NCBI GenBank assembly: GCA_028873845.1 | Contig: JAPPNO010000101.1 | Coordinates: 1 to 50,311 of the forward strand | DNA: 50,311 bases | Reading direction: 5' to 3' | DNA from: Gemmatimonadota bacterium | GTDB taxonomy: Bacteria > Gemmatimonadota > Gemmatimonadetes > Longimicrobiales > Gaopeijiaceae | Shown: piece after piece, positions 20,676 to 50,201 of the stretch | Position numbering within the stretch: the first letter of the stretch is position 1 | Layout of the letters: each line of letters starts with the position of its first letter | Program-made: the position numbers and the translations under genes | The notes under the pieces: model-generated | Database searches by the model: none | The model's input: only the letters and a program-made list of their open reading frames with translations | Told to the model about the DNA's origin: nothing

Positions 20676-20918
20676 ATGGCCAGCATCACGATCCGCAACC
20701 TCGACGACGGGGTGAAGGCGAAGCTCCGCGTGCGCGCGGCGGCCAACGGCCGCTCGATGGAAGAGGAGGCACGCATCATCCTGCGTACGGCGGTCAACCA
20801 GGAGGACTCGCGACGGGGGCTTGGGACGAAGCTCCACGAGTTGTTCAAGCCTTTCGGTGGGGTGGAGCTGGAGATTCCGCCAAGGGAGGCGATGCGCGAA
20901 CCCCCACGCTTCGGCTAG
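20676..20918 (+). CDS. FitA-type antitoxin (ribbon-helix-helix)
   Basis: This antitoxin of 80 residues has an Arc/FitA-like N-terminus: 'MASITIRNLDDGVKAKLRVR' supplies the beta strand that binds the operator, followed by 'AAANGRSMEEEARIILRTAV'. The C-terminus ('LHELFKPFGGVELEIPPREA') would wrap around the toxin. The ATG at 20676 was chosen for its ggaaggag site 7 nt upstream and its fit to the family. The toxin gene starts 10 bp after its stop, forming one operon. Confidence 0.92.
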   Translation: MASITIRNLDDGVKAKLRVRAAANGRSMEEEARIILRTAVNQEDSRRGLGTKLHELFKPFGGVELEIPPREAMREPPRFG

Positions 20919-20928
20919 GCCGTCGGGG

Positions 20929-32042: not shown

Positions 32043-32071
32043 GTCTCTCGGCTCCTTCCGCAGCGATTCTC

Positions 32072-32120
32072 GTAGTACGACAACATTCGTAACTACTCAC
32101 CACCGCCTACCAATTGTCAA
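32072..32120 (-). promoter_or_regulatory. possible promoter with dyad upstream of A1
   Basis: Reading towards A1, a perfect -35-like TTGACA (32115-32120) is followed by an imperfect dyad, gtagt(t)acga-N6-tcgtactac (32072-32096), 30 bp before the start codon. No good -10 hexamer is seen at the normal spacing. The 108-bp gap upstream of A1 is larger than the one above A2, so a separate promoter is plausible. Confidence 0.3.
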
Positions 32121-32150
32121 GTCACCAACGACCCCTCCACTGCTTCCGGC

Positions 32151-33404
32151 TCAGTTCACCGGGCGCGCGGCCAGCCTCTTCACCACCACCGTCTCCACAT
32201 CCAGTTCATCCGTCTCGATGAACGCGACCAGCCCGTCGGGCCCGAAGGCATCCGGAATCTCCGTGGCACCCGGGCGGTAGCTGCCCAGGTATCGGCCATC
32301 AGCCGTGAGCAGGTCGATGGGGCCGTCGCTGACGGGTGCCTCACCCCGCCGCATCACCCAGATGTCGCCGTCCAGCGTCACCGCGAGTCCACGGATCACC
32401 GGGATCTCCGTAAAGAATCTCAAGTCGTCGATCCGGTCGCGCTCTTCCCGCAGGTCTTCCCCCGGCTCGGCCTCCTCCTCCAATTCCGCCAAGCGCCGTC
32501 CTTTTTCGCCGCGAATCACGCCGTCCGTGACCGGTTCGGGCGGGATTGGGCGCGTCAGGATCCGCACGACGCCGGTTCCCGCTTCGGCGATCTTCACCGC
32601 GAAGGTCGTGGAGTCCGAAAACGCCACTCTGCCATCGGGCATGACTCCCCAGTACAGGCGTGGCGCGAATGTGCGCAGCCGCGGTCGCTTGAACTCGTAA
32701 CCGTTGGGCATCCGCCCCAATGACACGGAGTCCACAGGCGGAAGCCAACCCACTGAGACGGTGTCCTTCACGGCCTCCGTTCCGGTCAGCAGGACCCGCT
32801 CGACGGACCGGGACGTGGCGGGGCGCGGCCGACCGCTTTCATGGCTCCATTGGGCGGTAAAAGCGCCCAGTCCCCCCGTGGACACCGTGATCAGCGCGTC
32901 GGCACCCGGCTGGGCGGCGATCGGCTCAAGCATGGCAGAGCCGGGATCGCCCCCCATCTTCACCGTTCTCACGGGGTCGCCATTGGCGTCGAAAATGTGG
33001 AATGAACGACGACCCAGCTCCGCTACCACCACTCGTCCGTCCGGAAAAACCGCCATCCGGTCGGCACCCTGGAACTCGCCCGGTCCCTCACCCTTGCGCC
33101 CAACGCCGTGGACCAACGCTCCCCCCCTGTCCACAACGACGATGCGGCCGGCGCCCCATCCCTGCCGGTCGAAGATGTGGAGCCGTCCCGCAGCGTCGAA
33201 TGCCACGGTACGCACATTGCCGAACTGTTCCCACTCCTCGCCCATCAGCGACCCGATTCGGTACACCTCCTCGAAGTCGGCGTCGAGCCAGCGGTCCTCG
33301 GCGGGGAGTTCGACGATCTCCTGGGCCGGCAACGGCACCGTGGGCAGCCAGAGCGCCGAGACCAGGGAAACGATGTGGACACTCGTTACGCCGAATCGGT
33401 TCAT
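32151..33404 (-). CDS. array 6-bladed beta-propeller, member A2
   Basis: This 417-residue member has the start ATG at 33404, with gagagag 3 nt upstream and a signal peptide ending in PLPAQ. The mature protein opens '[20 protein letters not shown]'. The second blade differs from the sisters in an insertion ('[20 protein letters not shown]'), and the signature is '[16 protein letters not shown]'. Near the C-terminus it has '[20 protein letters not shown]', and it ends KRLAARPVN. The gene lies 58 bp downstream of A3. Confidence 0.9.
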
Positions 33405-33462
33405 GTCTCTCTCTTTCCAATGTCTTTCACCGAGCGTGACCTGGCCCGCCATCGGCTCGTCC

Positions 33463-34782
33463 TCAGTTCACCTCGCGCGGCACCCGCTTCACCACCACCG
33501 TCTTCACCTCCAGCTCATCCTCCTCGATGAAGGCCACCAGCCCGTCGGGGCCGAAGGCGTCGGGGATCCCGGTCTCGCCCGTGCGGTAGCTGCCCACATA
33601 CCGGCCCGCCATGTCCAGCACATCGATGGGCCCGTCGCTGTCGGGTTCCTCACCCGGCCGCTGCACCCAGATCATCCCGGCCCAGCTTGCACCGAGATCG
33701 CGAATCACGGGGATTTCGGTGAAGAACTGCAGGTTTTCGATGTCCTCGCGCCTGGACTTCCTCACCTCGTCGGCGTCAATGGCCATGACCTCCCCGTTCA
33801 AGACGATTCGGGGCCCGCCCAGATCCTCGTCCGGCGTCTCCGCCAGCTCCTTTAGACGGCGACTCCTTTCCGCCCGCACAAGGCGATCCGTCACCGGTTC
33901 CGGGGCGATGGGCCGGGTCAGGACACGCTCAACGCCAATCCCGACCGTCACGATCCTGACGGCGTACGTGGAAGAATCCGAGAACGCCACAGTCCCGTTC
34001 GGGAGTGCGTCCCAGTGCAGATCGGGGCTGAATTCGGGCGGGCCGCTCAATCCGCCCAGACTGAAACTTGTTCCGCCGGCCGATCGCGTGATTCCGGACG
34101 TCGGATCCGCACTGGCTGGCAGCCACGCTTCCGCGACCGTGTCCTTGGCGATCTCGTCGCCGGACAGGTCGACGCGCTCGATTACCCGGGTCGTCGGGTC
34201 CGGCCGTTCAGCGGGTTCCGCGCCGGCAACGCTCCTGACCGAAATCGCCATCGTCCCGCCCTCCGTACTCGTGATCAGACCTTCCGCGCCGCGCAGGGGC
34301 ATGTGAGTCCCGATGACCGTGTACGTGGGGTCCCCTCCCATCCGGACCATCCGCTCGAAGTCGCCGTTGGCATCGAAGATGTGATAGGCGCGGTGATCCA
34401 TGTCGGCCACGACGACCCGCCCGTCATCCAGGACAACGATATCGGCCGCGTGGCGAAACTCACCCGGACCTTCGCCTCTTCGCCCGATCTCCCGGATCAG
34501 CGCGCCGTCGCTACCCACGACGAAGATCCGCTCGGCCTGGTCATCGAAGACGTAGAGCCGGCCGGCGCCGTCGAACGCCACCCTCCGCACATCGCCGAAC
34601 TGTTCCCACTCCTCGCCCATCAGCGACCCGATTCGGAACACTTCCACGAAGTCGGCGCCGAGCCAGCGGTCTTCGCCGGGGAGTTTGATGGTTTCCTGGG
34701 CGGAGGCTGCATGTACGATCAACGTACCTGCCGCCACGATGGTAAACGCCATACCTGACCAACGCTTGGCGATCCTGCTCAT
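33463..34782 (-). CDS. array 6-bladed beta-propeller, member A3
   Basis: This 439-residue member has a signal peptide ending in HAASAQ. It opens '[20 protein letters not shown]', with the signature '[20 protein letters not shown]' and '[20 protein letters not shown]'. It is the longest array protein; a segment '[20 protein letters not shown]' before the fourth blade is extra. It ends KRVPREVN like A1, and the last 150 bp of the two genes are very similar. ATG 34782 was chosen; the open frame runs on upstream in antisense to A4. An in-frame ATG at 34752 would remove the basic part of the signal. Confidence 0.9.
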
Positions 34783-34877
34783 TGGGGCACTGTCCTCGTC
34801 TGTTGGTTTCTCCCAAAACAGCCAGCCGCTGACGGTTGGACGCCTGTTCGAGTGGAATGGTTGGCAGGGTGCTGCCC

Positions 34878-36128
34878 TTACGGACCGGGAGTCTCCGCCA
34901 CTACCCGCTTCACCACCACCGTCTGCACGCCCAACTCGTTCCTCTCCATGAAGGCGACCAGACCGTCCGGACCGAAGGCATCCGGGATCCTGGTCACGCC
35001 CGCCCGGTAGCTGCCCAGGTAGCGGCCATCCGCGGTGAGCACATCGACCGGCCCGTCGTCGTGCGGGCCATCGCCTCGGCGGAGCACCCAGATGTGACCG
35101 TCCCAAGTGGTTCCCAAACCCCGGATGACGGACAATTCGTTGTGGAATTCGAGCCTCTCGATCCTTCTGCGCCGTCCCTCGAGGTTGGCCCCCGGCGCGG
35201 CCGTTTCCTCCAGCCGGCGCAGCCGCCGGTCCCTCTCGGCGCGGATCACCCGACCAGTCACCCGCTCGGGCGCGAAGGGACGTGTCAGGATCCGCACCAC
35301 CCCCGCCCCCACCTCGGCGACCTTCACCGCATACGTTGAGGAATCCACGAACGCCACGCGGCCGTCCGGAAGGACTCCCCAATGGAGCTCCGGGCTGAAT
35401 TCGGGCAGGTCGTCGGTCGGTCTCGGAGCTGCGTTCACCAGGGCCGTATGGTCCAGACCCTCGAGGTCGATTGGAGGCAGCCAGGCTTCCGCGATGGTAT
35501 CCGTGACGGACTCCTCACCGGACAGCACCGTTCGTTCGAACGGATGCGACGTGGGGAATCTGGCGGGTTCGCTGAACGCTGCTCCCGTGATCGTCCATGC
35601 GGTAGCCAGCGTGGGCACTCCGATGATCGCATCCGCGCCCGACCAGGCGACCACACGCCCGACCCCGAATGCGCCGGCCGGATTGGCCATGCGCACCATG
35701 CGCTCGAATTCTCCGTCGGCGGAGAAGAGGTGGAAGCCACGGCGGCTGATGTCGACGACTGCCACGCGCCCGTCGGCAAAGACCGCCATGGCGCCCGAGG
35801 TGGAAAACTCTCCAGGACCGTCGCCCGGCCCACCCAGCTCGCGGACCAGCCTGCCATCGATGCCCACGACATGGACCACCTGGGCCTGCTCGTCGAAGAT
35901 GTGCAGGTTGCCCGCGCCATCGAAGGACACGCTTCTGACCCGCCCGAACTGCTCCCATTCCTCACCCGTCACGGCCGTGCCCACCCGGTACAGCTCCTCG
36001 AAGTCGAGCGCCAGCCACCGATCCTCGGCGGGGAGGTCGACGACCTGCTGGGCAGTGGTCGGAGCCGCGACGACAAACCAGGCCAGCGTGGCCCCCCAAC
36101 CCATTCTCCGGCTCGCAATCGATTTCAA
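34878..36128 (-). CDS. array 6-bladed beta-propeller, member A4
   Basis: This 416-residue member starts at TTG 36128, chosen because ggagg lies 8 nt upstream and this gives a signal peptide of the same length as its sisters (basic '[11 protein letters not shown]', cleavage after PTTAQ). The first motif is '[19 protein letters not shown]'. The signature is altered to '[10 protein letters not shown]'. The fifth blade has '[20 protein letters not shown]'. The C-terminus reads '[19 protein letters not shown]'. Element D lies in the 130-bp gap upstream. The open frame continues to an ATG at 36218, but that start would put 30 charged residues before the signal. Confidence 0.87.
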
Positions 36129-36210
36129 TCTCTTTGCCTCCAATTCATCCCCCACCGGGGACCGAGGTGGCTTCAGCGACCTGGCGCCATCGGCTTCGCG
36201 CCCCGTTTTG

Positions 36211-36263
36211 CAACTCATATGTAAACTGCAGCTGACATTCTGTAAACTGTGATTGACTCTATC
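36211..36263. repeat. AT-rich palindromic element D
   Basis: Two direct copies of tgtaaactg (36220-36228 and 36241-36249) lie 21 bp apart. The second runs into gtgattgactctatcg, shared with element C. The end of the element overlaps the stop codon of array member A5 (TAG on the minus strand at 36259-36261). It is upstream of A4. Confidence 0.7.
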
Positions 36264-37521
36264 GCGATTCGTTCATGATTCGCTTGACAGCCACCGTCTG
36301 CACGTCCAGCTCGTTCGTCTCGATGAAGGCGGCCAGGCCATCCGGACCGAAGGCATCCGGAATCACGGTCGCACCTGCGGGAATGCTGCCAAGGTAGCCT
36401 CCCGCGGCCGTGAGCACATCGATGGGACCGTCATCGTCGGGCCCGTCACCGCGCCGCAACACCCAGATGCGCCCGTCCCAGGTCGTTGCCAGGCCACGTA
36501 TCACCGGCACTTCGGGGAAGAACTCGAGGTTGTCGAGGCGCTCGCCCGGGTCGAGCATGGTCCAGCCTTCGCCGACGTCGTCCGGTTTCTCGCGACGCCG
36601 GTCCCTCTCGGCGCGCATCGTGTGCTCCGTCACCGGCTCGGGCGGCAGCGGACGTCTCAGCACGCGCACGACCCCCGGGCCCGCCTCGGCGATCTTCACC
36701 GCATAGTCGGAGGAGTCCGAATACGCCACGCGCCCATCGGGCAGCACACCCCACTGCAAGGCGGGGGTGAAGGCGCGCTGCAGTCCCGGGAACATCGAAG
36801 GGAAGGCCAGGAACATGCCGCGGACCTGATCGTACCTTTCGGGAACGGCCGCGTCGTCGAGCGGATAGAGCCGCGGCTCGGCGATCGTATCCGTCTCGGC
36901 CTGCTCCCCGGTCAACATCGTGCGCTCGATGGCATGGCCGGTGGCGGGTGGCGGCGGGCCTCCCGGGCCGCTGACGAAATAGCTCTGCGACGCACTCGGG
37001 ATGCCGATGACTTCATCCACACCCGACAGGACCACGATCCTCCCACCCCTCAATGTCCCGTGCATGACGTTCATGCGCGACCGGTGCCCGGGGTCCCCGT
37101 TCGCGCCGAAGATGTGGAAGACGCAGTGCCCGACATCGGCCACGACCGCCCGGCCATCGCGCGCAACGGCGAGTGCCGTCGCCTGCCTGAACTCTCCGGG
37201 TCCCTCGCCCCTGCGGCCGAATCCGCGGATGTAAGACCCGTCGACACCGACGACGACGATTCGTTGGGCGCGGTTGTCGAAGACATGGAGGTTGCCTTCG
37301 CCGTCGAACCCCACGTCCGTGACGCTCCCGAATTGTTCCCATTTCTCTCCGCCGAGTGACCCGACGCGATAAAGGTCCTCGATGTTGAGGTCCAGCCAGC
37401 GATCCTCGGCGGGGAGGTCGATGATTTCCTGGGCGTATGCCGAAGGAGCGAGGAGCAGCCAAGGCAGGAGGATTCTGCATCCCGAATGTAAACTGTGATT
37501 TCCAAACTGTAACGTTTGCAT
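36259..37521 (-). CDS. array 6-bladed beta-propeller, member A5, with repeat-derived N-terminus
   Basis: This 420-residue propeller opens its mature part with '[20 protein letters not shown]' and has '[20 protein letters not shown]'. In the fifth blade it has '[20 protein letters not shown]'. The C-terminus is '[20 protein letters not shown]'. The first dozen residues ([12 protein letters not shown]) are encoded by AT-rich element E, so the start codon and the front of the signal peptide appear to come from the repeat. ATG 37521 has no good ribosome site. The frame is open further upstream and continues into a decayed paralog (A6) whose stop codon is lost, so a longer fusion protein is possible. 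Confidence 0.82.
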
Positions 37522-37526
37522 TACTA
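37484..37526. repeat. AT-rich palindromic element E
   Basis: It contains atgtaaactgtgatt, identical to the core of element D, then aaactgtaac and gcattact. On the minus strand it reads agtaatg near one end and agtttaca near the other, the same pattern as element F. The agtaATG supplies the start codon of A5. Confidence 0.7.
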
Positions 37527-37542
37527 TCCGGCAGCAAGGATC

Positions 37543-37660
37543 CCTGTTCACGACTCCACCAGCCTCCGTAACTACCGTCTCCACATCCAGCCCGTTCCGC
37601 TCGATGAAGGCGTCCAGTCCCCGATTGGCGTCGAACATGCGCTACGCGCGGTGTCCCGGC
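37543..37660 (-). pseudogene. array propeller remnant A6, internal deletion
   Basis: On the minus strand this stretch reads a fragment of the third blade (HR.AH, then FDAN) joined directly to the family C-terminus ('[15 protein letters not shown]', ending VVN). About 220 codons of the normal protein are missing between the two pieces. A frameshift separates HRVAH from FDAN. The terminal 'gttcac' (Val-Asn) is followed by cct where A3 has tca, so the stop codon has become a sense codon and the frame runs into A5. It is evidence that the array recombines. Confidence 0.65.
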
Positions 37661-37669
37661 GAGGCGGAC

Positions 37670-38071
37670 CTACTGGCGCCGCAATCCAAGGTGGCCGACC
37701 TGGAACTCACGGGCATCGCGCACACACACCGTCTCACCGGACAAGACCACCTCGTCTCGCAGCCTCGCGTTGTACCGGCACGTGGCTGTTCCCGCGGCGA
37801 TTTCGACGTTGAACTCGATCCATACATCCAGGAAGTCGCGAGTAGTGGCGAGGCTGGAGCCAGTCAGTGATCCGCTGACCTCCGAAGGCTCTTCGTCCCA
37901 TTGAATCCGATAGGTGCCCGACAGACGGCCATGCGAATCGTCGATCGTCAGGGTCCACACATCGGTTTCGAAGCGACTGCCCTGCCATGTTCCGGTTACG
38001 CGTCCTTCTTCGGAGTCGCAGCTCGCGAGCACCGTCATTGCGAGCAGGATGGAAGGGATGGATGATCGCAT
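37670..38071 (-). CDS. small lipoprotein, unknown function
   Basis: This lipoprotein of 133 residues is not a propeller. The ATG at 38071 starts a signal with lipobox LAS-Cys18 ('ILLAMTVLASCDSEEG'). The mature part has the regular beta pattern 'VTGTWQGSRFETDVWTLTID', 'GRLSGTYRIQWDEEPSEVSG', then 'CRYNARLRDEVVLSGETVCV', suggesting a small beta-barrel or lipocalin-like fold. I do not recognise the family. It interrupts the propeller array, same strand, and ends only 9 bp before the A6 remnant, so its last residues (REFQVGHLGLRRQ) may have been altered by that rearrangement. Confidence 0.7.
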   Translation of the reverse strand: MRSSIPSILLAMTVLASCDSEEGRVTGTWQGSRFETDVWTLTIDDSHGRLSGTYRIQWDEEPSEVSGSLTGSSLATTRDFLDVWIEFNVEIAAGTATCRYNARLRDEVVLSGETVCVRDAREFQVGHLGLRRQ

Positions 38072-38140
38072 TCTGGCACACTCCTGTCCAAACGGTGTCA
38101 AATGATCCTCATACCCGCAGTATCGTCTGTGGACTCCCGC

Positions 38141-38680
38141 TCACAACCCCACCGGCCTCCGTACTACTACCGTCTCCACATCCAGCTCGTTCCGCTCGAT
38201 GAAGGCGACCAGGCCGCCCGGTCCGAAGGCATCCGGCATCGCCAACGCACCCGCCGGACAGCTCCCCAGGTACCGGCCGTCCATCGTCAGCACGTCGATC
38301 GGGCCCTGGTCGTCGCTCGGTTCGTCGCCGTGTCGTTGCACCCAGATCTCGCCGCCCAAACCCGTCCTCAGGTCGCGAACCATCGAAACTGCGTCGTAGA
38401 ACTCCAGATTCGCGATCCGTTCACGTGTCGCTCGATTGACGACCTGCGAACGCTCTTCGGCCATCCTCAAGCGACGTTCCCGTTCGGCAGTCCTGAAGCG
38501 GCGCGTCACGGGGATCGGCTCCAGCGGCCGCTTCAGGATCCGCCATACACCTGACCCCGGCCGCGCGATCTTGATGGCGTACGCCAACGAATCCGAAAAA
38601 GCCACGACTAAGCACGCCACGCCGAGCGCCTTTACCGCTCCGCTATGCGACATGAACTCAGCAAGGTGTAAACTTCTCAT
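38141..38680 (-). pseudogene. array propeller A7, C-terminal half only
   Basis: Only the last 165 or so residues of a propeller survive. The match starts at '[20 protein letters not shown]' and continues through '[20 protein letters not shown]' to '[20 protein letters not shown]'. The N-terminal 240 residues, including the EDRWL motif and the GPGEF signature, are absent. In their place is a new front, '[20 protein letters not shown]', whose first residues are encoded by AT-rich element F. The new front is hydrophobic enough to act as a signal, so a truncated exported protein could be made, but no ribosome site is seen. The nearest full-length relative is A8. Confidence 0.7.
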
Positions 38681-38707
38681 TACATAGTGGAAATCACACA
38701 TTACTTT
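38665..38707. repeat. AT-rich palindromic element F
   Basis: The element reads gtgtaaac, then attacatagtggaaatcacacattact. On the minus strand it begins agtaatg and has agtttaca 33 bp later, as in element E. The start codon of the truncated propeller A7 (38680) lies inside it, at the exact place where homology to other propellers is lost. Confidence 0.65.
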
Positions 38708-38747
38708 TCGCTCGCCGTCCAGACGGGAGATTGTGGGTCGTGCCCGA

Positions 38748-39929
38748 CTATCTTCCCCACGGTGCAAGCCGTCTCACTACCACCGTCTTCACGTCCAACT
38801 CGTCGGTCTCGACAAACGCAACCAGACCATCAGGGCCGAACGCGGCCGGCATCGCGATCGAACCCGCGGCATAGGTTCCGACGTAGCGCCCGTCCATCGT
38901 GAGGACATCGATCGGACCGAAGTCGTCGGTCGGTTCCTCTCCGTGGCGCTGCACCCAGATTTCCCCGTCCCAACTGGTCCCCAGTTCGCGGACGATCGGG
39001 AATTCATCGGAGAACCTCAAATTGGCGAGATGCCGGAGTTCGAATTCCCGCAAGCCGGGATCGAGTCCCTGCAGCCGCTCTCGCCGACGGTCCTTCTCGG
39101 CTTCCATCATCCTGCCGGTCACGGCGACCGGCTGGAGCGGCCGGGTCAGAACGCGCACCACACCGGCCCCCGGCCGCGCGATCCTGATCACGTACGCCGT
39201 CGAGTCCGAGAAGGCCACGCTCCCGTCCGGGAGCATACCCGCCGACATCCGCGGCCCGAACGCGATCGGCTCTCGCAATCCGTTGTAGAGTTCCCCGTCC
39301 GGGGGTAGCCAGCCGTCGGCAACCGTGTCCCGGCTCACCACGTCGCCGCTGAGGTCGTGGCGCTCGATTGGCCGGGTGGTGGGCGATGGGGCGTTGGCAA
39401 CGAAGCTGAAGGACAGCATTTGAGCGCCCACCGCGGAGAATACGGCGTCGCCGAGGGGATCGGGCATGAAGTTCCACAACACCATGGCCTCCAGCCCCTC
39501 GCCCATGCGTACCCGGCGTTCGTAGTCCCCGTTCGCGTCGAAGATCTCGTAAGCGCGGTCCGCCTGATCCGCGACCACCACTTTGCCACCAGGCGTGACC
39601 GCGAACCAATGCGCGTTCCTGAATTCACCCGGGCCCTCGCCCCGGCCTCCCAGTGTGCGGTGCAGGCCGCCGCTCCGGTCCACCACGAAGATCCGCAAAG
39701 CCTGCCTGTCGAAGACATGGAGCCGCCCGGCACCGTCAAAGGCCACGTTGCGGATGTTTCCGAACTGCTCCCAGTCCGCGCCCGCCAAGGACCCGATCCG
39801 GTAGAGTTCCTCGAACATGGGCTCCAGCCGGCGGTCACCGGAGGGGAGCTGAATGATCTCCTGGGATTCAGCCGACGCCGCGAACAGCAACGCCGCCCCC
39901 GCTATTGTCGAGAGAGAATGGATCTTCAA
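38748..39929 (-). CDS. array 6-bladed beta-propeller, member A8
   Basis: This is the first gene of the array in transcription order: 393 residues, starting at TTG 39929 with ggggaggag just upstream. The signal peptide ends in ASAESQ. The N-terminal motif has drifted to '[20 protein letters not shown]', but '[20 protein letters not shown]' and '[20 protein letters not shown]' are clear. The fifth blade is '[20 protein letters not shown]'. The C-terminus is '[20 protein letters not shown]'. It is shorter than A1-A3 by 25-45 residues. About 270 bp without a recognisable gene separate it from the HupE/UreJ gene upstream, room for a promoter. Confidence 0.9.
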
Positions 39930-40202: not shown

Positions 40203-41642
40203 CTATCCACTTGCCGCCTTCCCCCCTCGTCCCCCTTCACCACCCCCGAACCGCGCCGCCAACCGCCCGTACACCACCCCCAACCCCCACCCCACGCCCA
40301 CCACAATCAGCGCAAGCAGCACCCAACGCAGCACCACCGCCCAGAACCCCGCATCCATCACCGGCCTCACGAACTCGTACGCCCTCAGCACCCCCCACCG
40401 ATCCGCCATCCAGTGCAGGCTCGTGTGCGCCACCAGCGCAGACACCACGATCGCCCCGATCCGCGGCTTCATCACCTTCGAGAAGAGCAGCGCGAGCCCC
40501 GGCACCATGAACACCAGCACCACCAGCTGCCCCAGCTCCACCCCCACATTGAACCCCAGCAGCGACGTGAACAGGTGCGACCCCGCGAACTGCAGCGACT
40601 CGCTCAACTGGAACGAGAACCCGAACCCGTGCACCAGCCCGAACCCGAAGGCCCACGCCCACCGCCGCCCCAGCGTCTTCCCCACGATGTTCTCGAGCGC
40701 CATGAAGACGATCGAGGCCGCGATCAGCATCTCGATGAGCGGGGGAAACCATAGCGCTTTGGGCGCCAGCCCCATCACCGAAGCGACCAGTGTGATCGAG
40801 TGCGCCACGGTGAAGGCGGTGACCACGGACACAAGCGGCCAGATGCGCCGCAGCGGGATCACCAGGCAGAGCAGAAACAGCAGGTGGTCGATCCCGTCCA
40901 GGATGTGCGCGAAGCCGAGCGCGACGAAGCGCAGCAGCGCCTGGTGCCAGCGCGGATCGAGGCGGACCCGGCCGGGATTGCCCTGGTACTGGAAGACCCG
41001 CTCCGCGCCGTCCGGGGTGATGAAGCGCAGCACGGTCGTGGTGCGGATCCCCAGGTGGGCCCAGGCGGGGTCGATCGAAAAGCGTGACTCGGGGGATGTG
41101 ATCGGGGTGCGGAGGACCACGTCGAGCATGGCCTGTTCCAGCATCAGCTCGGTGGCGGGGGGGAGGGGCGGGGCGGCGATGTGCGCGACGGCGCGGTCGT
41201 AGTCGGCGAAGGAGGGGTCGGAGGGGAGAGAGATGCGGGCGCCGGTGACGACGGGCGCGGGGAGGCGGACGGCCTCTTCGTAAAGGGTGACGTAGTCCGC
41301 GATCCACACCTTCGCCTGGTCCGCGAGAAGCTCCGTGGCTTCCTCGATTTCGACGTAGCCGGGGCCCCGCACGGGGAAGTCCACGTCGCGCATCGAGGTG
41401 AGGGGGACTCGGAGGACGAGGTGGAGCGCCCCCGCCTCGGCTTTGACGAGGGCGCGCACGATCACGTCGGCGGGGATTTCGTGCGGGGCGGGCGGAGGAA
41501 TGGCGGCAACGCGTGCGGTGGCCGGGTGCGCGGGCCGGGTGGCCGTGCCCGGGCTGCCCACCCCTCCCGCAGGCGCAACGAGCATCCATATCGCCGCCGC
41601 CAGCGCGGCAATCGCACCGCTCCGAAGTGTCCGTCCTTTCAT
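40203..41642 (-). CDS. HupE/UreJ-type membrane protein
   Basis: This 479-residue protein has an N-terminal signal/anchor ('SGAIAALAAAIWMLVAPAGG'), a periplasmic beta-rich domain of about 180 residues, and a membrane part of about seven helices. The membrane part carries the HupE/UreJ hallmark 'LGFAHILDGIDHLLFLLCLV', with His and Asp spaced as in nickel/cobalt permease relatives. Further histidines are in 'TAFTVAHSITLVASV', 'FGFGLVHGFGFSFQL' and 'LVAHTSLHWMADRW'. Longer HupE_UreJ_2 proteins of this kind have no settled substrate; metal transport is inferred. ATG 41642 has ggaggg 5 nt upstream. The tail is Gly/Arg-rich. Confidence 0.88.
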   Translation of the reverse strand: MKGRTLRSGAIAALAAAIWMLVAPAGGVGSPGTATRPAHPATARVAAIPPPAPHEIPADVIVRALVKAEAGALHLVLRVPLTSMRDVDFPVRGPGYVEIEEATELLADQAKVWIADYVTLYEEAVRLPAPVVTGARISLPSDPSFADYDRAVAHIAAPPLPPATELMLEQAMLDVVLRTPITSPESRFSIDPAWAHLGIRTTTVLRFITPDGAERVFQYQGNPGRVRLDPRWHQALLRFVALGFAHILDGIDHLLFLLCLVIPLRRIWPLVSVVTAFTVAHSITLVASVMGLAPKALWFPPLIEMLIAASIVFMALENIVGKTLGRRWAWAFGFGLVHGFGFSFQLSESLQFAGSHLFTSLLGFNVGVELGQLVVLVFMVPGLALLFSKVMKPRIGAIVVSALVAHTSLHWMADRWGVLRAYEFVRPVMDAGFWAVVLRWVLLALIVVGVGWGLGVVYGRLAARFGGGEGGRGGKAASG

Positions 41643-41869
41643 CCAATCCCTCCAACAGGCCAGTCGCTGAGATCCGGCGTCGGCGCACTCCTTCGCGGAC
41701 GCGCACCCTCGCGGCAGCGACACGATACCCGGTCGCGCGGGGCCGCCTTCGCCGCCGACGACTACGCCGACGCTTCAACCCTGGCCTTCCCACCCTTGGC
41801 TGACAAGCGGTCGGCGCCGTACCTTGCCCCGAGTCGTCCCCCATGCCCCCCTGCCGAGGGAACCATCCC

Positions 41870-43042
41870 ATGAAGCGCAAACAGCTTCTCATCGTCGGCC
41901 TGGTCGTGGCCGCCGCGGCCATCTACGTCGCCCAGAACCGCCTCCAGGCCGCGGCCGACCGCGCCGCCGAGGCGCCGATGTTCGAAGTCGACCCGTTCTG
42001 GCCCCAACCGCTTCCCAATCACTGGGTTCTGGGGTCCGTCGTGGGGGTCGGCGTGGACTCGCGGGACCACGTCTTCATCGTGCACCGACAAGCGCCGCTC
42101 AATGAACGAACCGAGATCGGAGCGGCCCAGGATCCGCCCACCGGCGAGTGCTGCGTGCCGGCCCCGTACGTGCTCGAGTTCGACCCGGAGGGCAACCTGG
42201 TGAACTCGTGGGGCGGGCCCGGCGAGGGGTACACCTGGCCCGCATCCAACCACGGGATCACCGTCGACCCGATGGACAACATCTGGATCGGGGGCAACGG
42301 CGCGGACTCGCACGTCCTCAAGTTCTCGCGCGACGGGGAGTTCCTTGCGTCCTACGGCGAGGTGGGCGCCGACATGCCCAACAGCAACAGCACCAACTCC
42401 TTCGGGCGCGTGGCCAAGATCTCCTTCGACGCCGCGGCCAACGAGGCGTACCTGGCCGACGGCTACGTCAACAAGCGCGTGGCCGTGCTGGACATCAACA
42501 CGGGCGAACTGAAGCGCTTCTGGGGCGCCTACGGTAACACCCCTGACGACACCCGCCTGGGCCCCTACGACCCCGACGCGCCGCTGCCGCAGCAGTTCCG
42601 CAACCCGGTCCACTGCGCCGATCCGTCGAACGACGGCTTCGTGTACGTCTGCGACCGCCAGGCCAACCGCATCCAGGTCTTCCGCAAGGACGGCACCTTC
42701 GTGGACGAGGTCCGGATCGCGCCGCGCACGCTGGGCGACGGGTCCACCTGGGACATCGCGTTCTCGCGCGACCCCGAGCAGCGCTACATGTACGTGGCCG
42801 ACGGGAAGAACATGAAGGTGTACGTGATGGACCGGCTCAACCTGGAGGTGCTCACCAGCTTCGGGGACGGGGGGCGCCAGCCGGGGCTGTTCTTTGCAGT
42901 GCACAGCATCGCGACGGACTCGGAGGGCAACATCTACACGACCGAGACCTACGAGGGGAAGCGGGTGCAGAAGTTCGTCTACAAGGGGCTGGGGCCGGTG
43001 ACGGCGATGAACCAGGGGGCGCCCTGGCCGAGGAACAACTGA
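41870..43042 (+). CDS. NHL-repeat protein, peptidyl-amidating-lyase-like
   Basis: This 390-residue protein has an N-terminal anchor or signal ('QLLIVGLVVAAAAIYVA'). Six-bladed NHL-type repeats follow, such as 'VVGVGVDSRDHVFIVHRQAP', 'HGITVDPMDNIWIGGNGADS', 'VYVCDRQANRIQVFRKDGTF' and 'HSIATDSEGNIYTTETYEGK'. The layout fits bacterial proteins related to peptidyl-alpha-hydroxyglycine alpha-amidating lyase, but enzymatic activity cannot be claimed. It opens a four-gene plus-strand cluster; the lectin-like gene starts 16 bp after its stop. ATG 41870 was taken because the signal begins there. Confidence 0.87.
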   Translation: MKRKQLLIVGLVVAAAAIYVAQNRLQAAADRAAEAPMFEVDPFWPQPLPNHWVLGSVVGVGVDSRDHVFIVHRQAPLNERTEIGAAQDPPTGECCVPAPYVLEFDPEGNLVNSWGGPGEGYTWPASNHGITVDPMDNIWIGGNGADSHVLKFSRDGEFLASYGEVGADMPNSNSTNSFGRVAKISFDAAANEAYLADGYVNKRVAVLDINTGELKRFWGAYGNTPDDTRLGPYDPDAPLPQQFRNPVHCADPSNDGFVYVCDRQANRIQVFRKDGTFVDEVRIAPRTLGDGSTWDIAFSRDPEQRYMYVADGKNMKVYVMDRLNLEVLTSFGDGGRQPGLFFAVHSIATDSEGNIYTTETYEGKRVQKFVYKGLGPVTAMNQGAPWPRNN

Positions 43043-43058
43043 GGGGAGACCGACAACC

Positions 43059-43745
43059 ATGAAGATTCGAGCGATTGCAGCCACCGTCGTGCTGGCCGGC
43101 GCGGCGACCGGGGCCACCTGGCTGGGCGGGCCCACGACAGAGTTGGGCGACGAGACCCCGCAGGAGGCGATGACCTTCTTCATCACCAGCGCGGGACCGG
43201 GTGACGGGGCCAACCTGGGCGGGCTCGAGGGGGCCGACGCGCACTGCGAAACCCTCGCGGCCGCGCAGGAGGCCGGTGGGCGCGGGTGGATGGCCTACCT
43301 GAGCACGATCAACGACGACGGGAGCGCGGCGGTCAACGCCCGCGACCGGATCGGGAGCGGCCCGTGGCACAATCACGGCGGCGTGCTGATCGCCGACAAC
43401 GTCGACGAACTCCACTCCGACGCGGCCAACCTGACAAAGGAGACGATCCTCACCGAGATGGGGGACATGGTCAACGGGCGCGGCGACGACCCCAACATGC
43501 ACGACATCCTGACCGGGTCGAACATGGACGGGACCGCCTACACCGGCGAGGGCTACGACAACTGCGGCAACTGGACCAGCAACAGCGCCGACGGGAGCGC
43601 CGCGGTCGGCCACCACGACCGGACCGGCGGTGGCCAGAATCCGACCTCGTGGAACTCCGCCCACCCGTCGCGGGGCTGCGGCCAGGCGAACCTGCAACGG
43701 ACGGGGGGCAACGGGTTCTTCTATTGCTTCGCGGCGGGCGGGTGA
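43059..43745 (+). CDS. secreted lectin-like protein
   Basis: This 228-residue exported protein has a signal peptide at residues 1-24. The mature part has 'MTFFITSAGPGDGANLGGLE', 'GADAHCETLAAA' and 'GWMAYLSTINDDGSAAVNAR', continuing with 'DRIGSGPWHNHGGVLIADNV'. This is the pattern of short proteins annotated as lectins with a C-type-lectin/endostatin-like fold. Four cysteines (in AHCETL, DNCGNW, RGCGQA and FYCFA) could form two disulphides. Ligand unknown. The ATG is preceded by gaggggag. Its stop codon overlaps the next gene's GTG by 3 bp (GTGA). Confidence 0.82.
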   Translation: MKIRAIAATVVLAGAATGATWLGGPTTELGDETPQEAMTFFITSAGPGDGANLGGLEGADAHCETLAAAQEAGGRGWMAYLSTINDDGSAAVNARDRIGSGPWHNHGGVLIADNVDELHSDAANLTKETILTEMGDMVNGRGDDPNMHDILTGSNMDGTAYTGEGYDNCGNWTSNSADGSAAVGHHDRTGGGQNPTSWNSAHPSRGCGQANLQRTGGNGFFYCFAAGG

Positions 43746-44566
43746 CGGGAAAGGTGACCCGGGCCGCCTGGGCGGGTGCTGCGGCAGCGGCGCTCGCGGC
43801 GTGCGCTCCCGGCGAGGAGGGCACTCCGGCCCAGCCCGTCGACACCGTCTTCATCGAGGAGATGACGTGGACCGAGGTGCGCGACGCGATCGCAGGCGGC
43901 GCCACCACGGTGATCATCCCCACCGCCGGCACCGAGCAGAACGGCCCTCACATGGTGACCGGAAAGCACCGCTACATCATCGAGGCGGCCAGCGACCGGA
44001 TCGCGCGCGAACTGGGCAACGCGCTGGTGGCCCCGGTCGTGACCTATGTGCCCGAAGGGAACATCGATCCGCCGTCGGGCCACATGCGCTACGCCGGGAC
44101 GGTCACGCTGCCGAACGAGTTCTTCATGAAGCTGCTCGAGTACGCGGCGCGCAGCTTCCGGGTCCACGGGTTCACCGACATCGTCCTGATCGGCGACAGC
44201 GGGGGGAACCAGCGCGGCATGGAGGAGGTCGCGACCCTGCTGAACGGGGAGTGGGGGGGCGAGGGGGCGCGCGTGCACTTCGTCGGCGACTACTACGGGG
44301 CGAACGGCTACCGCGAGTGGCTGGCCGAGCAGGGTGAGACCCCGGAGAGCATCGGGCGGCACGCGGGAATCACCGACACCTCGCTGCTGCTGTACGTCGC
44401 GCCGCAGCACATCCGGCAGGACCAGCTCGCGCCGGGGGGCGGGTTCGAGGGGAGCGGGGTCTCGGGGGATCCGACGCGGGCGTCGGCGGAGTACGGGGAG
44501 ATGGGGATGCGGCTGCGCGTGGACGCGGCCGTGAGGCAGATCCGGGGTGCGGTCGGGGGAGGTTAG
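43742..44566 (+). CDS. creatininase-like lipoprotein with altered metal site
   Basis: This 274-residue protein belongs to the creatininase amidohydrolase superfamily, preceded by a short signal with lipobox ALAA-Cys21. The family core is clear ('VIIPTAGTEQNGPHMVTGKH', then 'VLIGDSGGNQRGMEEVATLL'). The known metal ligands of creatininase are Glu34, His36, Asp45 and His120. Only the Glu is kept (Glu65); the other positions read Asn67, His76 and Ser153. It may bind metal differently or not at all. GTG 43742 was chosen because it overlaps the lectin stop as GTGA. The carboxypeptidase-regulatory-domain gene follows after 7 bp. Confidence 0.85.
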   Translation: MTGKVTRAAWAGAAAAALAACAPGEEGTPAQPVDTVFIEEMTWTEVRDAIAGGATTVIIPTAGTEQNGPHMVTGKHRYIIEAASDRIARELGNALVAPVVTYVPEGNIDPPSGHMRYAGTVTLPNEFFMKLLEYAARSFRVHGFTDIVLIGDSGGNQRGMEEVATLLNGEWGGEGARVHFVGDYYGANGYREWLAEQGETPESIGRHAGITDTSLLLYVAPQHIRQDQLAPGGGFEGSGVSGDPTRASAEYGEMGMRLRVDAAVRQIRGAVGGG

Positions 44567-44573
44567 GGTGGTG

Positions 44574-45362
44574 ATGCGTGGTTTGGTCCGGTTGGCGACG
44601 GTTGCAGCGGTCGTCGGGCTCGTGGCGACGCCGGCCGGGCCGCGGGCCGCCTCCGCCCAGGAACCCCCTCCCCCCACCGACACCGCAACCTTCACTCTGA
44701 CCGGCGAGATCCTCGACGGGCTCATCGACGCGCCGGTGATCGCCGCAGTCATCAAGGTCCCGGCGCTGCGCCGCTTCGCCTTCACGGACGTGACCGGGCG
44801 GTTCTTCTTCACCGACTTCCCCGAGGGCACGTGGGAGATCATCGTCGAGCACCTGGGATACAACACGGTCGAGGGCACGGTCACGCTGACCGAGGGGAAC
44901 GGCCTCTTCCTGCGCATGACCCCCAACCCGGTGGCGCTGGAAGGACTCAAGGTGATGACGCGGTCGGACCGGCTGCTGGCCGAGAGGCGGCAGCGCTTCC
45001 CCTTTCGGGTCACCAGAATCTCCCCCACGATGCTCGCCGACGCAATCAACGCGGATCCCGCCGCCATCTTCCGGCGCAATTCGCTCTCCTACATCAGCGC
45101 CTGCCCCACCGGCCCGACCCGCGCGACCGACTGGATGACCCCCGACTGCGTCATGAAGAGCGGGGGCGCGGCCCGGATCCGGGTCTACCTGGACGAGTTC
45201 CCCATGGCGGGGGGGATGACCCACCTGAGCGCGATAGCCAGGGAGATGATCCACTCCATGGACTGGATCCCGGAGAAGGCGGAGTTGCGGGTCTACACCA
45301 AGGCGTTCATCCAGCGTCTGGACGAGGGGGCGTACAGCCTGGAGCCGCTGATCTGGGAGTAG
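44574..45362 (+). CDS. exported protein with carboxypeptidase regulatory-like domain
   Basis: This 262-residue protein has a signal peptide ending in AASAQE. A transthyretin-like CarboxypepD_reg domain follows ('FTLTGEILDGLIDAPVIAAV', 'FAFTDVTGRFFFTDFPEGTW', 'EIIVEHLGYNTVEGTVTLTE', about residues 38-125). The C-terminal half resembles the plug region seen after such domains in SusC/TonB-type proteins, with two cysteines (SACPTG, PDCVMK) and 'RIRVYLDEFPMAGG', but there is no barrel. It closes the four-gene cluster. ATG 44574 was chosen; gggggagg lies upstream, somewhat far. Confidence 0.83.
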   Translation: MRGLVRLATVAAVVGLVATPAGPRAASAQEPPPPTDTATFTLTGEILDGLIDAPVIAAVIKVPALRRFAFTDVTGRFFFTDFPEGTWEIIVEHLGYNTVEGTVTLTEGNGLFLRMTPNPVALEGLKVMTRSDRLLAERRQRFPFRVTRISPTMLADAINADPAAIFRRNSLSYISACPTGPTRATDWMTPDCVMKSGGAARIRVYLDEFPMAGGMTHLSAIAREMIHSMDWIPEKAELRVYTKAFIQRLDEGAYSLEPLIWE

Positions 45363-45409: not shown

Positions 45410-46537
45410 CTACCCGGGACGCTTCCCACGCCGCAGCCGCCACATCACCAGGGCCACCGTGAATCCCGTCCACGCCAATACCACCACGGCCAGCGCGGAG
45501 AGTCCGGCGAGCGCCTGGCCGGCCAGTCCCCAGTACTCGCCCGTATGTGCGTAGCGGAGTAATTCCTGGGCACGGTGGTTCGGCGATTCGTCGCGGAACG
45601 ATTCGGCGGAGACGACGGCACCGGTTTCCCGGTCGACTGCGAGCACAGCTGCCTTCTGCGGCTGGCCGGAGCGCCCGGTCCGCACCTCCACGCGAACTTC
45701 CGCGTGGTCCGGGCGGGGGAGCGTGAGCACGATGGTTCGCCATCCGGGGACCTGCGCCCTGGCAGCCGCCAGGGCACCGGCGAGACCCTGTCCCCCACCC
45801 ACTCCCCGCCCCTCCCCGGCCGTCTCATCGCCCCCACCCCCCATCACCGTCCCCACCACCGGATAGACCCTGTCCCCCACCCCCGGGTACGACATCACCA
45901 CACCAGTCACCGAAATCACCGCCAGCGGGACGAACGACCAGATCCCCACCACGTAGTGCCAGTTGAGTTTCCGCGCCGGCCCGCGAACGCCACGCCGAAA
46001 GACGAGGTTCTCGGTCAGGTTCCTCCGTGTGATCCGGCGTGGCAGCCACAGCAGCGGCCCGGTCAGCAAAAGAAACAGGAAGGCAACGTTGGCCGCGCCC
46101 GTCACCGCCCGCCCCTTGCGCATCGCACCCCCCGACACGCCCAGCCAGCGATGCACCCCCCGCACGCCCTCGAAGAAGCCTTCCAAGAGCGGGAAACCCC
46201 CGCCCACCACCTCGCCCGTGTACGGATCCACGAAGACGCGCCGGTCCCGTCCCGCATGGACCTGCACGGCTGCGCCGGGACGGTTCCGGTACTCGATGGA
46301 GGTGGCCGTGACGGCGACGCCCGACCGCTCGCCCCACACCGCGGCCGCCCCCACGATTTCGTCCGGAGACAGACGCGGGGTGTCCTCCCGCACAGCCACC
46401 GAAAGACGCCTTTCCGCCACCGACATCACCACGTCCTCGCAAGCCAGAACGACCCCGGTCGCGGCCATCGTCACGATCAACAATCCGGCGGCGAGCGCCA
46501 CCGACAGGTGGAGGCGAAAGAGGACCCCGCGTATCAA
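45410..46537 (-). CDS. PepSY-associated membrane protein
   Basis: This 375-residue inner-membrane protein is of the PepSY_TM (PiuB/FecD-neighbour) type, common beside iron and siderophore uptake genes. The four helices are at 'LHLSVALAAGLLIVTMAATG', 'VTGAANVAFLFLLLTGPLLW', 'HYVVGIWSFVPLAVISVTGV' and 'LAGLSALAVVVLAWTGFTVA'. Between them are PepSY-like segments 'FVDPYTGEVVGGGFPLLEGF' and 'AVLAVDRETGAVVSAESFRD'. The histidine in 'GVHRWLG' and 'YAHTGEYWG' are conserved family features. Role: probably reduction or handling of imported iron; inferred from the family. Confidence 0.88.
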   Translation of the reverse strand: MIRGVLFRLHLSVALAAGLLIVTMAATGVVLACEDVVMSVAERRLSVAVREDTPRLSPDEIVGAAAVWGERSGVAVTATSIEYRNRPGAAVQVHAGRDRRVFVDPYTGEVVGGGFPLLEGFFEGVRGVHRWLGVSGGAMRKGRAVTGAANVAFLFLLLTGPLLWLPRRITRRNLTENLVFRRGVRGPARKLNWHYVVGIWSFVPLAVISVTGVVMSYPGVGDRVYPVVGTVMGGGGDETAGEGRGVGGGQGLAGALAAARAQVPGWRTIVLTLPRPDHAEVRVEVRTGRSGQPQKAAVLAVDRETGAVVSAESFRDESPNHRAQELLRYAHTGEYWGLAGQALAGLSALAVVVLAWTGFTVALVMWRLRRGKRPG

Positions 46538-47706: not shown

Positions 47707-47909
47707 TTCTCTCCTCTCGGCGAGTAGTGTGACTGCATGAGCTGCGGGATGCGAATCTGCATACCGAGCCTCATCCTGGCGACGAAAAATACGGGCGCGG
47801 GCGCCCGCGCGCCAACGAACGTGCCTTCAGAGGTGTCATTTACGCTGTCAGACGGAAGTTGCGCTTCTACAGGTCCCCCCCAAGCCGAGTGCTGAAGACG
47901 AAGGCCGAC

Positions 47910-50201
47910 GTGAACCGAAGACCGCCTCTGTTCTCCCTGCTTCTCCCCGGCATGCTCCTGATCCCGCCGGTCACACCGGCCGCGGCGCAGGAGTCCAACG
48001 GCTCCGACACCGATGCGGTGGCCCTGGTGGCGCTTCCCATTGCCGACGAGGTAACCATCCGGCTCGACGGCCGGCTCGATGAGACGGCATGGCGAAACGC
48101 CACCCCCATCACCGATTTCACCCAGCAGGAACCCGTCGAGGGCGGGGAGCCTTCGGAGCGGACCGAGATCCGCGTCGTCTTCGACGAGGACCACCTCTAC
48201 ATCGGCGCCATCCTCTACGACGATCCCTCCGGCATCCTGGCCTACCAGCGCCAGCGCGACGCCGGCCTGGGCACCGACGACCGCTTCATGTGGATCCTGG
48301 ACACCTTCCTGGACGGGCGCACGGGGTACTTCTTCGAGATCAATCCGGCGGGACTGATGGGGGACGGGATCCTGACCGGGGGCGGTGGACGGGGTGGGGG
48401 CGGGTTCGGCGGGGGAGGCGGCAAGGCGTGGGACGGGATCTGGGAGGCCCGTACCGCAGAGCGTCCGGACGGCTGGTCGGCCGAAATCAGGATCCCCTTC
48501 CGGACCCTCAACTTCAACCCTGACCTGGACACCTGGGGGATCAACTTCCAGCGCACCATCCGGCGCCGCAACGAAGAGATTCTGTGGCGCGGCCACCGAC
48601 GCAACGAGGGACTCTTTCGGCCGGTCAGTGCCGGGCGCCTGACGGGCCTGCAAAACCTGTCGCAGGGGCTGGGGCTGGAGGCCAGGCCCTCGGCCGTGGC
48701 GAGCTGGCGCAACGTCCCGGACAACACCGACCCCACCACCTTCCCCCGGGACATCAGCCTCGACGTGAACTACAGCCTCACCTCGAGTCTGCGCGCGTCC
48801 GCGAGCATCAACACCGACTTCGCCGAGGTTGAGAGCGACCAGCGGCGCGTGAACCTCACTCGCTTCCCGCAGCGATTCCCGGAGCGGCGAGACTTCTTCC
48901 TGGAGGGCTCGGGCGTCTTCACCTTCGCCCCCCGGAGCGGTCCGTCCCCCTTCTTCTCACGGCGGATCGGACTCAGGTCGGGCGAACAGATCCCCATCCG
49001 GTACGGAACGCGCCTGACCGGACAGGCGGGCAGGTACGAGCTCGGGTTCTACCAGATCGGGACCAGTGCGCATACGTACCTGCCCTCGGGCGCTGAAGCC
49101 GATCTGACCGTTCCCGGCGAGAACTTCACGGTCGCGCGCGTCAAGCGCTCGATCCTGGAGCAATCGGCCATCGGCGCCATCTACACGCGCCGGTCCGCAG
49201 CCGCCGACCCCACGGGCCAAACCCCGGAAGTCGGCCACACCGTGGGCTTCGACCTGCAGCTCAACACGCGTCGCTTCCTGGGCGACAACCGGGCCGAAAT
49301 GGAGGCCTTCTTCGTCTGGAACTCCAACCCGGATCCCACCGTGGACCGCTCGCTCGGCGATCTGACCGCGCGCGGCTTCCGCTTCAACTTCCCCAACGAT
49401 GTCTGGCAGGCGCACCTGTCCTACCGCGAGTTCGGTGACGACTACCGGCCGACCCTCGGATTCGTGGCCAGGAACGGTTTCCGCCGGGTGGAACCACGCA
49501 TCGGCTGGGCCCCGAGGCCCGCAAGCATCGACTGGATCCGGCAGCTGGAATTCGCGGTCCAGTTCCGCAACCTGACCCAGCTCGGCACCGGCATCCTGGA
49601 GGAACGGGAGTGGCAGCTGGACCTGTTCGACATCGAATTCGAGAGCGGCGACAACTTCGAGGTGGGAGCCACCCGGACGCTGGAATACCTGGACAACGGC
49701 TACGAGGTCAGCGAAGGCATCGACATCCTGCCGGGCGAGTACACGACGTGGGAGTGGAGCGCGAGAGGCCGCACAGCGTCGCGGAGGCGCGTGTCGGGGG
49801 GTGGCAGCGTGAGCCGGGGAGGGTTCTGGGACGGCGACCGGACCCGATACGATCTGCGCGCGTCGTTTCGGCCCAACCCGGGTGTGAGCATCTCGCTCAA
49901 CTTCGAGCACAACGCGGTGACGCTGCCACGGGGCGAGTTCACGGCCGACGTGTACGAGGTCGAAGGCGAATGGAACCCCAGCCAGTGGGTCGGCCTGACC
50001 AACCAGATCCAGTACGACAACGACAGCGACATCGTGGGACTGTTCGCGCGCCTCCGCTGGATCGTGCGGCCCGGCAACGATGTCTTCCTCGTATACACGC
50101 ACAACTGGCGCAACCTGGGCCTCGACATCCTCGACGACCGCGACCTGATCACCCTGTCGCGCGGCGGCGCGGTCAAGGTCAACTACACCTACCGGTTCTG
50201 A
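47910..50201 (+). CDS. DUF5916 outer-membrane protein with CBM9-like domain
   Basis: This 763-residue exported protein starts at GTG 47910 (gaagg 5 nt upstream) with a signal peptide ending in PAAAQE. An N-terminal CBM9-like beta-sandwich ('IRLDGRLDETAWRNATPITD', 'RVVFDEDHLYIGAILYDDPS', 'WSAEIRIPFRTLNFNPDLDT') is followed from about residue 240 by the DUF5916 part. That part has 'DFAEVESDQRRVNLTRFPQR', 'FPERRDFFLEGSGVF' and a barrel-like series of strands ending in the aromatic F (VNYTYRF). A Gly-rich loop interrupts the first domain near residue 165. Family role unknown; probably an outer-membrane protein that binds glycans or acts on them. Confidence 0.9.
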   Translation: MNRRPPLFSLLLPGMLLIPPVTPAAAQESNGSDTDAVALVALPIADEVTIRLDGRLDETAWRNATPITDFTQQEPVEGGEPSERTEIRVVFDEDHLYIGAILYDDPSGILAYQRQRDAGLGTDDRFMWILDTFLDGRTGYFFEINPAGLMGDGILTGGGGRGGGGFGGGGGKAWDGIWEARTAERPDGWSAEIRIPFRTLNFNPDLDTWGINFQRTIRRRNEEILWRGHRRNEGLFRPVSAGRLTGLQNLSQGLGLEARPSAVASWRNVPDNTDPTTFPRDISLDVNYSLTSSLRASASINTDFAEVESDQRRVNLTRFPQRFPERRDFFLEGSGVFTFAPRSGPSPFFSRRIGLRSGEQIPIRYGTRLTGQAGRYELGFYQIGTSAHTYLPSGAEADLTVPGENFTVARVKRSILEQSAIGAIYTRRSAAADPTGQTPEVGHTVGFDLQLNTRRFLGDNRAEMEAFFVWNSNPDPTVDRSLGDLTARGFRFNFPNDVWQAHLSYREFGDDYRPTLGFVARNGFRRVEPRIGWAPRPASIDWIRQLEFAVQFRNLTQLGTGILEEREWQLDLFDIEFESGDNFEVGATRTLEYLDNGYEVSEGIDILPGEYTTWEWSARGRTASRRRVSGGGSVSRGGFWDGDRTRYDLRASFRPNPGVSISLNFEHNAVTLPRGEFTADVYEVEGEWNPSQWVGLTNQIQYDNDSDIVGLFARLRWIVRPGNDVFLVYTHNWRNLGLDILDDRDLITLSRGGAVKVNYTYRF

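Follow-up and report, generated by a model that had tools for sequence, protein, structure and literature searches.

A divergent HupE-NHL gene pair and its lineage-specific neighbours in Gemmatimonadota

Layout of the locus

A cluster of genes for exported proteins lies on contig JAPPNO010000101.1 from a Gemmatimonadota bacterium (assembly GCA_028873845.1, 4.05 Mb in 137 contigs). The window referred to here is the whole stretch of 50,311 nucleotides that was analysed. The original prediction described four tightly packed genes, here called NHL, LEC, CRE and CPD, and all four open reading frames were confirmed with the gaps given for them (16, -4 and 7 bp for NHL-LEC, LEC-CRE and CRE-CPD, respectively). 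Absent from that prediction was the most conserved neighbour of the block, a divergent HupE_UreJ_2 gene (HupE) on the opposite strand, separated from NHL by 284 bp with the HupE start used here. The features of the locus are the following.

40203..41585, minus strand: HupE/UreJ_2 permease carrying an exported domain at its N-terminus (PF13795, E 1.9e-41)
41796..41825, plus strand: promoter- or operator-like element upstream of NHL, TTGGCTGACAAG-N9-CCSTACYTT
41870..43042, plus strand: NHL, exported PAL-like propeller, 390 amino acids (PF01436, E 6e-10)
43059..43745, plus strand: LEC, exported protein of predicted endostatin fold, 228 amino acids (predicted model, Foldseek, VIA)
43742..44566, plus strand: CRE, putative lipoprotein of creatininase fold with an altered metal site, 274 amino acids, GTG start (PF02633, E 3e-39)
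44574..45362, plus strand: CPD, CarboxypepD_reg-like exported protein, a variable accessory, 262 amino acids (PF13715, E 5.1e-9)

The HupE start is uncertain, and the list of open reading frames permits upstream starts up to 41723. The N-termini of the four rightward proteins have an exported look as judged by eye, and that of CRE includes a lipobox-like LAAC. Pfam cut-offs are passed by NHL, CRE and CPD, and not by LEC.

Fourteen of the 23 genomes of the genus have the element upstream of NHL, each with a single exact match. In all 14 it sits on the NHL strand, 43 to 46 bp before the NHL start. The search returned five other matches, each with three mismatches, and a reversed-pattern control returned four. 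The element has the look of a promoter serving the rightward arm, and comparison shows that in most of the genus this arm has one conserved promoter-like element at its beginning. Between 40100 and 46700, no sigma-70 consensus promoter was found (0.3 expected), and there are five terminator-like sites where 3.1 are expected. No Rfam RNA family is present at gathering threshold between 40000 and 46000, and therefore no known metal riboswitch.

Distribution of the pair and of its additions

The association of HupE with NHL was assessed in 246 genomes sampled from the class, with thresholds of E ≤ 1e-40 for HupE and E ≤ 1e-130 for NHL. HupE is found in 104 of these genomes and an NHL orthologue in 106. 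Both are present in 102 genomes and either one in 108, with HupE alone in two and NHL alone in four. At these thresholds, HupE and NHL are rarely apart or single. They lie within 5 kb of each other in 98 of the 102 genomes that have both, are divergent in 97, and are separated by a median gap of 279 bp. Each genome contributes a single NHL row to this count (G045 contributes two), and the omission of second copies can only lower adjacency. Because the genomes of the class sample are related, the Fisher value for the pair overstates their independence. No common perfect palindrome is visible between the two genes across 39 intergenic stretches. Comparison shows HupE and NHL as the ancient core of the module, and there is very probably a functional HupE-NHL module.

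The other members of the block are distributed differently, as seen in 79 relatives that include the genome of the window. With matches at E ≤ 0.001, CRE is found in 70, HupE in 54, NHL in 52 and LEC in 46. Among genomes of the genus that have both genes at the orthologue level, NHL and CRE are within 5 kb in 19/19, NHL and LEC in 19/19, and LEC and CRE in 18/18. For these counts, and for those given below for genomes outside the genus, NHL rows were taken from about 55% identity upward, with a fragment in G029 added, CRE rows had at least 54%, and several weak LEC fragments were omitted. The original grouping withstood the test proposed for it, that it would be accidental if orthologues were never adjacent elsewhere. 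In 20 loci that carry the block (L036-L055), NHL and CRE always occur together, LEC stands between them in 19, and 11 of these 19 show a LEC-CRE gap of -1 (starts from our own gene caller).

Outside the genus, HupE and NHL are within 5 kb in 16/19 of the relatives that have both, HupE and LEC in 8/17 (a figure that counts G071, whose LEC is partial, and G040, where the genes are 4.3 kb apart), and NHL and LEC in 6/17. CRE is this close to NHL, LEC or HupE in only 2/10 genomes each. Pairs on different contigs are counted as not near, and a few of them may be contig breaks, as in G158, where NHL is at a contig end.

NHL, LEC and CRE occur together in genera g1, g13, g23 and g51, the last with CRE present at the locus of G210. 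Only four genera, all of one family, were seen to have CRE beside the module, and the search for CRE covered the 79 relatives. The CRE matches at 80-93% identity have record titles that name Gemmatimonadetes, Gemmatimonadota or Longimicrobiales metagenome-assembled genomes. No conserved partner of CRE emerges outside the clade: among the 71 loci compared, no neighbour cluster occurs in more than 10. Single members can also be missing while the rest of the module is kept. In G013, CRE comes straight after NHL and the genome has no LEC match, and G003 has HupE, NHL and LEC with no CRE match. CPD comes and goes, with 0 to 5 nearby copies in relatives. In G034, a uracil-DNA-glycosylase-type gene lies between the CRE and CPD genes, and in G044 an Amidohydro_3 gene (L177:9127-10869, E 3.1e-23) stands 6 bp after CPD, which would be another amide-type enzyme and in keeping with an amide theme. 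Comparison shows CRE and CPD as later, lineage-specific additions. The four-gene unit of the original prediction is real as a grouping in the genus, with boundaries that were wrongly drawn: HupE was left out, and CPD is variable.

LEC has a wider distribution and was found in 126 of 298 genomes of the phylum. Of 28 genomes to which CRE loci led, 24 also have LEC; most carry the labels of other phyla (unchecked labels, with four of the 28 named as Gammaproteobacteria or Gemmatimonadetes). In 43 of the 82 genomes that have both, LEC and HupE are no more than 5 kb apart, and this linkage is nearly all-or-none by lineage. It is complete in g1 (13/13), g79 of family f7 (13/13), g12 (7/7), g4 (2/2) and g15 (2/2), and is seen in 1/1 each in g19, g23, g29, g51, g52 and g61. 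Each genome common to both samples enters this count with a single LEC row (G189 with two), and fragments are omitted. Among 65 LEC loci, the top neighbours are HupE (17) and NHL (15), and the next cluster has 7. These loci are not independent, because six come from g12 and some were fetched since NHL was already known nearby.

The position of LEC relative to the pair varies. The order HupE(-) NHL(+) LEC(+) is found in g1, g4, g13, g15, g23 and g51, and the order LEC(+) HupE(-) NHL(+) in g12, g29, g52 and g61. In G116 of g79 there are two NHL copies and HupE, then LEC 3.1 kb further on. A locus from an Acidobacteria-labelled genome (L312) has LEC facing NHL beside HupE. This label may be wrong, because in three of the four genomes named above as Gammaproteobacteria or Gemmatimonadetes (G332, G333 and G335) the LEC places coincide with those of the g12 genomes G310, G264 and G211. 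Comparison shows LEC as an old, optional third member of the module, and we think it probable that LEC belongs to the module. An endostatin fold, as predicted for LEC, would travel with HupE-NHL in several families.

A second LEC copy in G022, a genome of the window's genus (L180, G022:C24:8000-23000), has a neighbour block in common with L315 and L318-L321, five loci of genomes with Acidobacteria-labelled CRE records. This shared block suggests lateral transfer.

Features of the individual proteins

A profile built from 25 NHL homologues matches rat PAL (3fvz) with an E value of 7e-14. Other NHL-domain proteins match this profile equally, so the case for likeness to PAL rests on residues. We take R533, Y654 and R706 to be the catalytic residues of PAL and H585, H690 and H786 its zinc ligands, and all six agree with the chain numbering under a single offset of +491. 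NHL R73, H128, Y199 and R263 share profile columns with PAL R533, H585, Y654 and R706. These four NHL residues, together with H248 and H345, are invariant in 25/25 homologues. Like PAL (3fvz, 3fw0), NHL has an NHL propeller with four residue equivalents, and candidate histidines at or beside the positions of H690 and H786. The 'amidating-lyase-like' label given to the propeller at the outset is thereby supported at the residue level. Unlike PAL, NHL is bacterial and divergently paired with HupE, and its activity is a proposal from sequence.

HupE resembles the recently named anglerases, HupE/UreJ_2 permeases that bind copper and nickel and for which metal capture for import has been proposed (PMC12537917, seen in excerpt). 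Like Ang-1 and Ang-2 as presented in that excerpt, it has a signal-like region, a conserved exported domain apparently led by histidine, and a PF13795 membrane domain. All 16 chosen sequences share H35, a residue close to the beginning of the exported part. A histidine is present there in 24 of 28 alignment rows, and the other four were called from a later start. Both PF13795 and a histidine near the exported start are thus found, with exact signal cleavage before this histidine as an assumption. The gene neighbours given in the excerpt are DUF4198, indigoidine synthase A-like and PfkB genes for Ang-1, and metallophosphatases and DUF916 for Ang-2, and no PAL-like propeller is listed there for either. 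HupE has no matches up to E 1 among PDB chain sequences.

CRE is a member of the creatininase family by sequence (135.3 bits against the PF02633 cut-off of 31.3) and by predicted structure. Its model has a mean pLDDT of 90, and Foldseek matches it to 3a6k (E 1.1e-14), which has the creatininase fold. CRE shares this fold and Pfam family with creatininase (1j2t, 3a6k) and MftE. Its metal site is different. Of the creatininase ligands, which we take to be E34, H36, D45, H120 and E122, CRE retains only E34, as E65. The other four positions are occupied by N67, H76, S153 and G155. E65, H76, D152, S153 and H207 are invariant in 42/42 aligned sequences of the CRE subfamily, N67 is present in 41, and position 155 is glycine in 37 and proline in five. 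Because these residues recur throughout the subfamily, they point to a rebuilt site and not to the decay of one gene. CRE also scores under both NCBIfam equivalog cut-offs (70.4 of 235 bits for creatininase and 71.8 of 172 bits for MftE). CRE thus appears to represent a creatininase subfamily with a rebuilt metal site, which bears out the description of it as a divergent amidohydrolase. A distant creatininase paralogue in the same genome has the standard motifs EQHGPHLPLLVD and SHGGN. A search of the open full-text literature (PMC) for creatininase with Gemmatimonadota and sponge found nothing.

Relatives of the window's genome repeatedly have a pair of creatininase domains within a single open frame. 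Examples are G001:C1:120445-122133 and L077:8049-9560 (a 963-amino acid frame and a 504-amino acid gene).

The third member had been called a lectin, and should instead be called endostatin-like by the fold of its predicted model. The AlphaFold model of LEC has a mean pLDDT of 77. Foldseek matches it to five PDB chains, all of them endostatins (best E 4.5e-5). VIA superposes it on endostatins with Z 15.1-16.3 over 158-167 residues, a root mean square deviation of 2.9-3.2 and 16-17% identity; absence from the VIA list does not exclude a family. LEC is thus like endostatin (collagen XVIII/XV) in its modelled fold, and four of its cysteines (C63, C169, C207 and C223) are invariant in 40/40 sequences. 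The match of LEC to DUF1554 (PF07588) stays below threshold, at E 0.0018 and 18.6 bits where the cut-off is 27.5, and 'lectin' is therefore no family call. LEC also has a weak match to LenAB (NF047482), the family of the leptospiral endostatin-like proteins LenA and LenB (PMC2063517), that is far under the cut-off (E 5.6e-5, 22.6 of 300 bits). No matches to LEC up to E 5 exist among PDB sequences.

Possible functions and alternatives

We tentatively favour a reading of the locus as a divergent envelope module that joins metal capture to a PAL-like lyase and has gained lineage-specific additions. The four rightward genes would form the right arm of this module. HupE would capture and import a transition metal, as proposed for the anglerases. 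NHL may act as a metal-dependent lyase that converts alpha-hydroxyglycine-type hemiaminals (N-acyl or peptidyl) to an amide and glyoxylate. LEC could bind the substrate or a surface polymer, CRE might act on amides through its non-standard metal site, and CPD may help with outer-membrane transport or assembly. The lyase chemistry of NHL, judged from its residues, is possible rather than probable, and a functional part for CRE in the module is likewise doubtful. Hemiaminal lyases or amidation are the subject of PMC12508155 and PMC12636437, and the first of these states that its methylguanidine lyase is non-homologous to PAL (both in excerpt).

The nearly obligate divergent pair links the recently named metal-capturing permeases to the PAL-like family, and yields a substrate-plus-metal hypothesis for both HupE and NHL. 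We know of no bacterial role for this family of enzymes. The parts have known or known-like folds, and their pairing and its additions seem to be undescribed. The open full-text literature (PMC; subscription literature not covered) gave no description of HupE/UreJ with a PAL-like or NHL propeller.

Several observations weigh against this reading. The activities and metal use of all members are predictions from sequence and models. In the propeller, H248 of NHL is one column off PAL H690, and H345 fits PAL H786 by eye only, outside the aligned stretch. The NHL-domain proteins Thin (3e-22) and TRIM71 (5.4e-14) match the profile better than PAL does, and NHL homologues without an adjoining HupE retain the identical residues. 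This reading does not account for the origin of its hydroxyglycine substrate. No PHM-type copper hydroxylase partner (PF03712) was matched in the same genome, but the controls were silent too, so this search decides nothing. Since HupE imports to the cytoplasm, how it would supply metal to an exported lyase is not obvious. Conservation within the genus is partly common descent, and the linkage of LEC to HupE is all-or-none, with 0/17 in family f5, 0/8 in g6 and also 0/14 in others of the family. The promoter-like element is missing from nine of the 23 genomes of the genus, six of which carry the NHL of the block (G005, G008, G009, G012, G020 and G022). The remaining three have only a 72% NHL homologue (G010) or no NHL match (G011 and G015). 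One of the five terminator-like sites, a weak one (43703-43721, plus strand), lies at the end of LEC before CRE.

A rather unlikely alternative is that the module serves metal acquisition alone, with the three histidines of NHL making it an exported metal carrier or sensor for HupE that has no lyase activity, and with LEC as another binding protein. The constancy of HupE as the partner of NHL, the copper and nickel binding of anglerase domains (PMC12537917, in excerpt) and a PepSY_TM gene that flanks the window cluster are consistent with this explanation. However, a carrier would not need the equivalents of the non-metal catalytic residues of PAL, and R73, Y199 and R263 are invariant. The lack of a known metal riboswitch at the locus also counts against it.

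We consider it unlikely that the proximity is neutral, with the block kept by descent and LEC, CRE and CPD hitchhiking on the divergent HupE-NHL pair. Such an explanation would account for CRE and CPD links that are confined, as seen, to close relatives, for LEC linkage that is all-or-none by lineage, for many LEC genes with no HupE or NHL neighbour, and for the uracil-DNA-glycosylase-type gene inside the G034 block. It is harder to reconcile with LEC on either side of HupE-NHL according to genus and in a third order in the Acidobacteria-labelled genome, because several orders imply that LEC either joined the pair on more than one occasion or shifted its position while staying beside it.

Quite unlikely is the single pathway of four genes, handling a glycan or an amidated peptide, that was first proposed. 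In its favour are the close spacing of the genes, within the genus as well as in g13, g23 and g51, the single upstream element and the Amidohydro_3 gene after CPD in G044. As drawn, this pathway is not supported, and against it stand the rarity of CRE near the other genes outside the genus, the variability of CPD and the natural losses of LEC (G013) and CRE (G003). In addition, none of the four proteins has a Pfam match to a glycan-cleaving family at E values up to 0.1.

A bolder extension of the module that we favour is very improbable. HupE and the PAL-like propeller would be the two halves of an unrecognised bacterial counterpart of animal PHM-PAL, in which a copper-binding, histidine-leading HupE domain hydroxylates glycine-type amides at the cell surface, or serves their hydroxylation, and the propeller completes the cleavage. 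LEC would present the substrate and CRE would hydrolyse the released amide.

A supply of nickel by HupE/UreJ to urease, with NHL resembling a ureidoglycolate lyase that gives urea, is close to rejected: the family name, the chemical resemblance of ureidoglycolate to hydroxyglycine amides and the seven of 79 relatives that score above the 23-bit urease-alpha cut-off favour it, but G050 (E 1.5e-49) is the sole full match, the other 10 matching genomes have partial matches of E 3.1e-5 or worse, the one of these that was checked (G044) is the Amidohydro_3 protein, and the genome of the window has no match (controls match in 4/14).

Other genes of the window lie around the module. A PepSY_TM gene on the minus strand (45410-46537, E 9e-44) converges on CPD and is retained beside the block in only part of the genus. 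A DUF5916 gene occupies 47889-50201, 2.5 kb past CPD, and in genus g12 (L270, L276, L278 and L199) a DUF5916 gene follows NHL. On the other side, 30747-39890 of the minus strand holds tandem six-bladed-propeller-like genes (NHLb type) whose copy number differs among relatives. Farther away, at 20676-21351 on the plus strand, a small gene pair resembles, as judged by eye, an antitoxin with a PIN-type toxin.

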